A stretch of 64,000 bases of DNA from Cryomorphaceae bacterium 1068 (GTDB lineage Bacteria > Bacteroidota > Bacteroidia > Flavobacteriales_D > Cryomorphaceae): positions 496,001-560,000 of the forward strand of contig JAPVXR010000001.1 of the NCBI GenBank assembly GCA_027214385.1. The letters run 5' to 3'. Positions 34,199 through 36,206 of this stretch are shown piece by piece (within the stretch, counting starts at the first letter, position 1; every line of letters starts with the position of its first letter). Made by a program: the position numbers and the translations under genes. The notes below the pieces were generated by a model that had not been told where the DNA came from, did not search any database, and was given only the letters and a program-made list of their open reading frames with translations.

Positions 34199-34696
34199 AT
34201 GGAAACTAAAGCAAAAGAAAAGTCATTTATCAAATTGGGTTTTGATAAAGATGAAGCATATGAAGTAGTAGAAACCCTTAACGCCCTCTTGGCAAATTAT
34301 GCGGTTCTATATCAAAAGATCAGAAATTTTCATTGGAATGTTACGGGTGGGGATTTCTTTGATATCCACGAAAAATTGGAGGAAGAATATACTGCAGCTG
34401 CGGAATACATCGATTCAGTAGCGGAGAGAATTCGAATTCTTGGATTCAAGCCATTGAGTACACTTTCTGCCTACATTGAAAAATCAGACATCGAGGAGAC
34501 TGAAGAAGACCTCAGCGGAGCCCAAATGATGGAAATAATCGTAGAAGATTACGAAACGCTACTCTCGTTTATGGTCGATGCAGCTGATGCAGCAATTGAG
34601 CATGGAGACATAGGAACAGAAACATTGATGAGAGAAATTCTGTCTCGCACAGAAGAGAAGCATTGGATGTTTACTGCTTTTATTAAAAAGGGGTAG
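34199..34696 (+). CDS. dps: Dps ferritin-like DNA-protection protein
   Basis: A 165-residue Dps. The ferroxidase-site residues fall at E. coli positions minus six: H45 (NFHW), H57 (DIHE), E61, D72 and E76 (YIDSVAERI). Dps forms a 12-subunit shell that oxidises Fe(II) with hydrogen peroxide and stores it, protecting DNA; in some species it also coats DNA through a basic N-terminus, and here the tail METKAKEKSFIK is mildly basic. It stands alone, with its own promoter, 652 bases before the next protein gene, a coiled-coil lipoprotein on the opposite strand. Three structured elements follow it. Iron or peroxide control is likely from the family, and a sequence shared with the feoAB upstream region is consistent. 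Confidence 0.96.
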   Translation: METKAKEKSFIKLGFDKDEAYEVVETLNALLANYAVLYQKIRNFHWNVTGGDFFDIHEKLEEEYTAAAEYIDSVAERIRILGFKPLSTLSAYIEKSDIEETEEDLSGAQMMEIIVEDYETLLSFMVDAADAAIEHGDIGTETLMREILSRTEEKHWMFTAFIKKG

Positions 34697-34815
34697 TCGA
34701 AAAAAATATGACTGTAAATGATTGAATTTCAAATATAAATCATATTATTATCACAGTTAACGTAAAATACCGGCTCGCAATGTAGTCCGGCACGTAAATT
34801 GACGTGAAAAACATT

Positions 34816-34908
34816 GTAAGCATCTTACTTCATCAGAATTGGTTATTCTGATTGGTTAAAATGATTGGTTAAACAAGAAACCCGCCTAACGAGGCGGGTT
34901 TCTTGTTT
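34816..34908 (+). ncRNA. Tandem structured RNA element, copy 1
   Basis: About 93 bases in the order: hairpin GTAAG-cat-CTTAC; hairpin ATCAGAA-ttggtta-TTCTGAT; single-stranded TGATTGGTTAAA repeated twice; then a 16-bp perfect terminator stem (34871-34886 with 34893-34908) with loop TAACGA. The spacing and layout are repeated in two more copies. A conserved TTGnCGT lies about 17 bases upstream, but no consensus -7 element. It could be a small RNA or a 3' UTR element of dps. No coding capacity is seen in this stretch. Confidence 0.55.
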
Positions 34909-35025
34909 ATGGTGTTTTTTCCCTATCTCAATGCAGACAGTTGTTTGCGAAGCATTTCAAAAGCTGAAGATGAGAAAATCTGTTAATGATGTAACCTTAT
35001 GGAATAAACTGCGTTTTAATAACCA

Positions 35026-35119
35026 GTAAGCATCTTATTTTTATCAGAGCTGGTTACTCTGATTGGTTAAAATGATTGGTTAAATAAAAAACCCGCCTAA
35101 CGAGGCGGGTTTTTTATTT
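35026..35119 (+). ncRNA. Tandem structured RNA element, copy 2
   Basis: Starts 210 bases after copy 1. The second hairpin is ATCAGAG-ctggtta-CTCTGAT: the closing pair changes from A-T (copy 1) to G-C with both strands changed, which supports a real RNA stem. The first hairpin ends CTTAT (one G-U pair). Terminator stem 35082-35097 with 35104-35119, ending TTTTTTATTT. Confidence 0.55.
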
Positions 35120-35237
35120 TATCGTTGTATAAACATTAGCGAGTTCTTGATCTACTTCATATTTGGTTTAGTCGAAAGATGATTCAAAAAATCTGTTAAC
35201 GACAAAACCTTTTTAAAATATTGTCGTTTATCTAAGA

Positions 35238-35328
35238 GTAAGCATCTTACTTCATCAGAATTGGTTACTCTGATTGGTTAAAATGATTGGTTAAATAAAA
35301 AACCCGCCAAACGAGGCGGGTTTTTTAT
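35238..35328 (+). ncRNA. Tandem structured RNA element, copy 3
   Basis: Starts 212 bases after copy 2. GTAAG/CTTAC hairpin is intact; the second hairpin is ATCAGAA/CTCTGAT, with the closing pair mismatched (half of the change seen between copies 1 and 2). Terminator stem 35295-35308 with 35315-35328. Its 3' end lies about 20 bases from the stop of the convergent lipoprotein gene and could terminate transcription from both sides. Confidence 0.55.
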
Positions 35329-35348: not shown

Positions 35349-36206
35349 CTAATCAGTAATGATAACCAAGTATTTCGTCGCTTCCCAAAACCGCATAGGT
35401 TCCAATATTTTAAGTGTTTTTTCCTTTTCACCTTCTATGGAATAAGTTTCAGGAGGATGCGTAGTCACTATATTTACTTTTTCCGAATTCACAGGTATGG
35501 ACCTTGTTCTGGTTAAATCTATCTGTGCAAAAAAATCTTTGTTGAAGTCGCTTTTCAATTGCTTTGAACCTGCAATTCCAATTATGCCTCCTTGCTTCTC
35601 AACTACTCCTGCTTCTTCTAAATCTTTAAAACTTCCGATTGCATAGTAGACTGTATTCATCTCATCGCTCTGCATTTGGATAAGATCTGCTTGAATTTCG
35701 TTTCGGAATTCAGCGGAATCGAGCATTTCATTCAGTATCTCGATAGTGAAGTTCGCGGCAGTCAGGTTTTCCTTCAAATAGGATACTTGCTCTTCTTTGG
35801 TTTCGATATCCTCATTAAGCTGTGAAATCAGTTTTTTGAACCCTGTAACTTCACTGCCATAGGCGGAAAGCTTATTGTTCAATCGGTTGATCGTCTGTTT
35901 GTTTTCTTCAAGTAGATTATTGATGGCCTGAATATCTCGAGTTATTTCTTCCCGTGTATCCTCGCCTTCTCTCAGCTCACCTGCGTTGAGAGAAATAGAT
36001 TCTTCTCTTTCTCCAATCAAAGAAAGGTTTTGTTGAATAGCTGTGAAGCTTTCTTCAAATAGTCGCATGGTAGAATCTTTCATTACCAATTGATTTTCTA
36101 AAGAGTCATTTTTCATTCGCAGTGACTCCAGTTCAGTTTCAGCCTCCGGGCTAACGCACGAGCTCAAAGCCGTAAAAATTAAAAGGATAAATGCTACATT
36201 TTTCAT
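35349..36206 (-). CDS. Coiled-coil lipoprotein of unknown function
   Basis: A 285-residue lipoprotein. MKNVAFILLIFTALSSCVS gives a clear lipobox with Cys17. Residues about 22-185 are a near-continuous coiled coil (SLRMKNDSLENQL, NKLSAYGSEVTGFKKLI, and further Leu/Glu/Lys heptads), broken by two short turns. The C-terminal 90 residues form a beta-rich domain opening NTVYYAIGSFKDLEEAG and ending in ATKYLVIITD. The pattern is common in Bacteroidota lipoproteins of unknown role; I do not assign a function. It is the only gene on its strand between dps and feoA. Upstream, it is divergent from feoAB across 242 bases. Confidence 0.8.
   Translation of the reverse strand: MKNVAFILLIFTALSSCVSPEAETELESLRMKNDSLENQLVMKDSTMRLFEESFTAIQQNLSLIGEREESISLNAGELREGEDTREEITRDIQAINNLLEENKQTINRLNNKLSAYGSEVTGFKKLISQLNEDIETKEEQVSYLKENLTAANFTIEILNEMLDSAEFRNEIQADLIQMQSDEMNTVYYAIGSFKDLEEAGVVEKQGGIIGIAGSKQLKSDFNKDFFAQIDLTRTRSIPVNSEKVNIVTTHPPETYSIEGEKEKTLKILEPMRFWEATKYLVIITD

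Follow-up and report, generated by a model that had tools for sequence, protein, structure and literature searches.

A multicopy family of candidate small RNAs with predicted ECF-type promoters in Flavobacteriales

In enterobacteria, the small RNAs (sRNAs) RybB and MicA are driven by sigma-E, depend on Hfq, and are not arranged in tandem. RybB uses its conserved 5' end as a seed against envelope mRNAs. CsrB and RsmZ act differently, carrying GGA motifs that titrate CsrA. RNA-based control in Flavobacteriales is little studied. Among the Bacteroidota, the FopS/GibS family of Bacteroides thetaiotaomicron consists of multicopy sRNAs in which a conserved, single-stranded seed precedes the terminator, and FopS, which has canonical sigma-ABfr promoters, represses translation of the mRNA of an exported transporter (PMC11697453). 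In Flavobacterium psychrophilum, the conserved flavobacterial sRNA Rfp18 affects secreted proteases, and promoters of an ECF-type class named SM6, whose -10 box is CGT, drive the putative sRNA Rfp11 as well as T9SS genes and an ECF/anti-sigma pair (PMC9723704).

The window analyzed here, a stretch of 64,000 nucleotides from Cryomorphaceae bacterium 1068, has three tandem copies of an ~89-nt element downstream of dps (Table 1). Repeat analysis of the window confirmed the copies reported in a first-pass annotation, with their starts and their spacing of 210 and 212 nt, and found no other direct repeat of at least 25 nt. Zero chance matches are expected for the 25-nt linker within the unit (TGATTGGTTAAAATGATTGGTTAAA). 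The layout described earlier as common to the copies is present in all three: a GTAAG..CTTAC/T hairpin, a second hairpin, the linker, and a terminator. The terminator of copy 1 is followed by a read-through tail (CTTGTTTA). The array had been described as free of ORFs, and none of at least 80 amino acids occurs in the interval. The linker holds a three-codon ATGATTGGTTAA (Met-Ile-Gly-stop) at 34860-34874, 35071-35085, and 35282-35296. This minimal ORF occurs in most copies from the same GTDB family (f1) and in family f2, has a TGA stop in one relative, is absent from three copies, and differs in family f9; it is probably a by-product of the linker motif. The statement that no named RNA family has this form also held, with no Rfam 15 match at the gathering threshold in the window and far sub-threshold matches only for the RNAs themselves. 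FopS was not among the Rfam results for either the window or the RNAs.

Table 1. Features of the tandem array and its flanking genes, in window coordinates.
Feature	Position	Strand	Remarks
dps (ferritin-like, PF00210)	34199..34696	+	Upstream neighbor in 7/7 family genomes having the RNA
Degenerate promoter counterpart, copy 1	34781..34806	+	TGTAGT-N16-CGTG
Candidate sRNA copy 1	34816..34904	+	GTAAG to terminator; repeat family D1; R1 121.9 bits; homologues in 6 other genomes
Hairpin 2, copy 1	34832..34852	+	UUGGUUA in loop; stem varies between genera, pairing kept
Linker, copy 1	34849..34873	+	Two UUGGUUA motifs
Terminator stem-loop, copy 1	34870..34909	+	Counterparts at 35082-35119 (copy 2) and about 35293-35327 (copy 3)
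Predicted ECF-type promoter, copy 2	34990..35015	+	TGTAAC-N16-CGTT
Candidate sRNA copy 2	35026..35115	+	Repeat; R1 114.9 bits
Linker, copy 2	35060..35084	+	Two UUGGUUA motifs
Predicted ECF-type promoter, copy 3	35203..35228	+	CAAAAC-N16-CGTT
Candidate sRNA copy 3	35238..35326	+	Repeat; R1 119.2 bits
Linker, copy 3	35271..35295	+	Two UUGGUUA motifs
Lipoprotein, predicted coiled coil, no Pfam match above cut-off	35349..36206	-	Convergent neighbor in four f1 genera and in family f2

An exact scan for the linker pattern in one genome per species identified it in two other Flavobacteriales MAGs. Each has two tandem occurrences, which follow dps and face the same lipoprotein gene in convergent orientation. 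A covariance model (R1) was constructed from these seven copies (window and two MAGs). The search with R1, a check proposed at first pass, revealed two to six copies in seven of eight f1 genomes, representing five genera; the eighth, with no R1 match, is 81% complete. The proposal of a repeated, terminator-ending RNA element is borne out by these homologues, which have the same make-up in relatives. A strain-specific duplication of a terminator is excluded by the homologues across five genera, each with an array at dps. Judging from the sequence, the RNA very likely represents a selected sRNA gene family. The arrays are co-oriented with dps and downstream of it in all seven genomes, and one genome (G005) has a second array elsewhere. 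The array had been placed between dps and feoAB. It does adjoin dps, but the convergent lipoprotein gene intervenes before feoAB, and feoAB does not follow the lipoprotein gene in a same-genus relative (L006), so that this adjacency is not conserved. The lipoprotein gene itself is absent beside the array in genus g5.

Folding of the whole window copies scored 4.8 to 7.0 standard deviations above shuffles, chiefly owing to the terminator. With the terminator removed, copies 1 and 3 fold like shuffled sequences and copy 2 folds moderately better (z = -2.75). The terminator has a G+C-rich stem with compensatory changes and a T-run, as in rho-independent terminators. Among the first seven copies, both-sided changes were found at four base pairs, of which the terminator accounts for three. 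Hairpin 1 hardly varies, and covariation is therefore of little use for or against it. The paired change reported for hairpin 2 was recovered (A-T in copy 1, G-C in copy 2, and an A.C mismatch in copy 3). Since MAFFT misaligns hairpin 2 of G5 relative to the others, covariation was judged on single folds, and in these the stems of f1 copies differ yet pair (CAGA/UCUG, CGGAG/CUUCG, CGGGG/CCCCG, and GUGUC/GACAC). The 5'-end AAGCATCTTA is invariant in 21 of 21 f1 copies. UUGGUUA occurs in the hairpin 2 loop of most copies and twice in the linker; copies G2c-e keep the 5' end and have lost the UUGGUUA motifs.

Upstream of each copy, the first-pass annotation had rightly noticed TTGnCGT before GTAAG, although it was not recognized there as belonging to a promoter, in which it forms the -10 part and is preceded, at a distance of 16 nt, by a -35 part (TGTAAC). 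TTGnCGT was described as constant; it is exact in copies 1 and 3, but copy 2 has ACTGCGTT, and the constant part is CGT, 13-14 nt before GTAAG. AAC and CGT elements at such spacing are the typical layout of an ECF-sigma promoter. AAC-N16/17-CGT was found 12-14 nt before GTAAG in 15 of 21 f1 copies, and in 17 of 21 when G2f and G5d, where the same elements lie one base nearer to GTAAG, are included. The control with shifted offsets gave 14 in 3,360 (0.4%). Across the families with this RNA, an AAC -35 and a CGT -10 element are 16-17 nt apart in 15-17 of 21 copies from f1, 13 of 13 from f9, and the one copy from f2. Upstream regions in f1 have diverged apart from these promoter-like elements, and A-tracts often precede the -35 part. 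The promoter is likely of the ECF type. A position weight matrix scored at least 16.4 at only four sites in 924 kb of the source genome, two of them at copies 2 and 3; since these RNAs were the training set of the matrix, the result bears on specificity without being independent proof. Sigma-70 region-4 genes are numerous in the source genome, and no ECF gene among those examined has this promoter.

The full pair of elements is missing from four copies (w1, G2a, G1a, and G5c), all of which are the first copies of arrays. The same-genus orthologue of copy 1 has an intact TGTAAC-N16-CGTT, and G1a and G2a have a sigma-A-like box (TATACTTG and TTACCTTG) ending 4 nt before the same start. First copies with no ECF-type promoter, two of them with a sigma-A-like box, suggest different inputs to the same RNA. 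A near-perfect ECF-type promoter also occurs within a PorP/SprF-type ORF in the source genome (C1:203726, L008) and in G001 (C1:50429), at the same place in two genera and some 210 nt upstream of an OmpA-like lipoprotein gene.

A sample of the order was searched beyond f1 using R1 together with a core covariance model (R2), and convincing matches to either model in this sample were confined to f1, f2, and f9. In f9, dispersed RNAs were found by R1 and R2, with up to six matches per genome in genus g40. At all 13 anchored f9 loci, AAC-N16/17-CGT precedes a conserved GATTTGTTTTTTTGG...GGATTTGGTTAAG by 14-15 nt, and a terminator follows; these RNAs have a double UUGGUUAA and the same promoter type as f1. 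Two loci in genus g51 combine GCAAC-N16-CGTT and a hairpin with a single TTGGTTAAGG and a terminator. The alignment of f9 5' ends with GTAAG by R1 is an artefact, and the f9 GTAACC is the -35 box. The f2 RNA (G008) has three UUGGUUA motifs behind GGAAC-N16-CGTA and is convergent with a gene whose product shares 40% identity with the window lipoprotein (E = 2e-59); over the 3 kb read, the RNA adjoins neither dps nor feoAB. Its position at the same lipoprotein locus makes common descent with f1 likely. Descent of the f9 and f2 RNAs from a single ancestor is likely but unproven, because a promoter and a short motif could recur. Comparison of the three families points to a common core in which the promoter type and a terminator accompany one to three UUGGUUA motifs, with scaffold and copy number varying.

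Several candidates were rejected. Those R2 matches outside Flavobacteriales that were read appear to be ordinary mRNA terminators or chance, a second G008 match and a G019 match are plain terminators, and the weak R2 matches read in f3 and f8 contain no recognizable element. At one f9 locus, a Flavo-1 RNA (RF01705, 47 bits; L200 1568-1643, minus strand) is convergent to a UUGGUUA sRNA-like element. In the source genome, the 3'UTR of an AhpD-like peroxidase gene (C16:19090-19179; L030 1501-1590) has TGATTGGTTAATATTGGTTAGG and a terminator, oriented like the sRNA, and is perhaps a 3'UTR-derived relative.

This distribution bears on three other accounts of the array. The elements could be cis-acting parts of transcripts that extend beyond dps, either in the 3'UTR or as attenuators, rather than separate genes, and the co-orientation with dps in every f1 genome having the array fits such a role. 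Each copy, however, has its own promoter-like element and terminator, and dps lies upstream of neither the second G005 array nor the copies in f2 and f9, which leaves this account improbable. Tandem iron-responsive sRNAs of the PrrF type, the comparison offered at first pass, would agree with the tandem layout and with dps and feoAB nearby in the source genome. That analogy is unsupported: feoAB is not conserved nearby, the f2 copy is away from dps, and the promoter appears to be of the ECF type. No E. coli-type Fur box within 3 mismatches was found in the window, using a box model that is not Bacteroidota-specific, and we consider a PrrF-type array highly improbable. A mobile or selfish short repeat with an incidental terminator would account for the multiple copies and their dispersal in f9. 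We give it the least credence, as the position at dps is kept across five genera despite diverged flanks, the hairpin is compensated, the promoter spacing is fixed, and no target-site or terminal features were seen.

Possible targets were surveyed in about 1.26 Mb of the source genome, 0.38 Mb of G001, and 0.40 Mb of G002. On contig C11 (C11:1-3620; L048, L049, L265), a pair of paralogous genes for exported proteins, next to each other, carries UUAACCAAAUUAUUAACCAA in the 5'UTR together with AAGAUGC at the start codon. These sites, found by looking for such sites, are complementary to the linker and the RNA 5' end, with a duplex of -32 kcal/mol and ranks of 4 and 6 among 1,033 genes. Within the 5'UTR that the pair has in common, UUAACCAA occurs twice as a complement of the linker; the pair counts as one event because of the tandem duplication. 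When the linker was compared with the 5' regions of 1,033 genes from the source genome, the tenth-best site was better than in 159 of 160 shuffles. The 50 best 5' sites include 24 genes for exported proteins (23 without C11), compared with a shuffle mean of 14.9 and one of 160 shuffles as high. Exported targets were not enriched in G001 and were enriched in G002 only among the six best sites. Sites common to orthologues were fewer than in shuffles, TTAACCAA near starts had no global enrichment (counts near ATGAA equaled the control), and no convincing conserved double target sites were found in relatives. Exported-protein mRNAs are thus only tentatively proposed as the main targets, and this is doubtful. 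A Por_Secre_tail (T9SS-substrate) gene has in its 3'UTR a ~20-21-nt perfect complement of the linker (C1:647022-647041; L047 1501-1520) directly before the terminator; it was not seen in relatives and could be a target, a sponge, or chance.

The family is marked by conserved sequence and synteny, a compensated hairpin, and fixed promoter-like elements. On balance, we incline to a new ECF-driven, multicopy family of trans-acting sRNAs. Each copy would be a separate noncoding RNA gene of about 90 nt, and most would be under their own ECF-sigma-type promoter (TGTAAC, 16 nt, CGTT), with some first copies having lost or exchanged it. Given such a promoter, levels of the RNA would be expected to increase during activity of a stress- or envelope-responsive ECF sigma factor. 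The transcript is predicted to start at or just before GTAAGCATCTTA; it would then form a small hairpin, variable in sequence, continue through a single-stranded linker that carries UGAUUGGUUAAA twice, and end at its own terminator. It would most likely act by base pairing in trans, seeded by the invariant 5' end and by the UUGGUUAA repeats, and would probably reduce target translation; exported proteins may be encoded by some of these targets. Transcription, the sigma factor, pairing, and repression are inferred.

The repeated motif also suits a different role, in which an ECF-controlled sponge titrates an RNA-binding protein or another sRNA through UUGGUUA in loop and linker, in the manner of CsrB with a new motif and in three families. 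Multiple copies would raise the capacity of such a sponge. Besides the copy in most hairpin loops, the linker has UUGGUUA twice; the f2 RNA has it three times and f9 RNAs have it twice, on other scaffolds and at different spacing, and this variation in number and spacing suits a protein-binding RNA; the multiple copies and the lack of conservation of predicted mRNA targets point the same way. Set against this, the 5' end is better conserved than UUGGUUA (copies G2c-e), as suits a pairing seed, and there is no known candidate protein. We regard a sponge as unlikely, and pairing in trans rather than protein titration as moderately likely.

The RNA is classed among the multicopy sRNAs and is absent from Rfam, and its repeated motif keeps the sponge reading alive. 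A multicopy RNA family in three Flavobacteriales families, with a predicted ECF-type promoter, a repeated motif, and, in f1, an invariant 5' end, is a concrete object of study. It poses the question of whether these bacteria link an ECF stress response to regulation of exported proteins by sRNAs, in the manner of sigma-E and RybB/MicA in enterobacteria, or instead employ a protein-binding sponge. With RybB and MicA, the window RNA shares ECF-type control, which is predicted here, and with RybB also a conserved 5' end; sequence similarity between them is not expected. It resembles CsrB and RsmZ in having a short motif repeated in loops and linkers, but the motif is UUGGUUA and not GGA. Flavo-1 (RF01705) is likewise a flavobacterial sRNA candidate but has no match in the window or on the f1 RNAs. 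The FopS/GibS family is similar as a multicopy Bacteroidota sRNA with a single-stranded seed and a terminator, whereas FopS copies are dispersed and have sigma-ABfr promoters, and the window RNA is set apart from it by description. Rfp18 is also set apart by description, as its predicted pairing region is the third stem-loop (PMC9723704). Rfp11 of F. psychrophilum is likened to the window RNA by description, as a putative flavobacterial sRNA with an SM6 ECF-type promoter and a CGT -10 box (PMC9723704).
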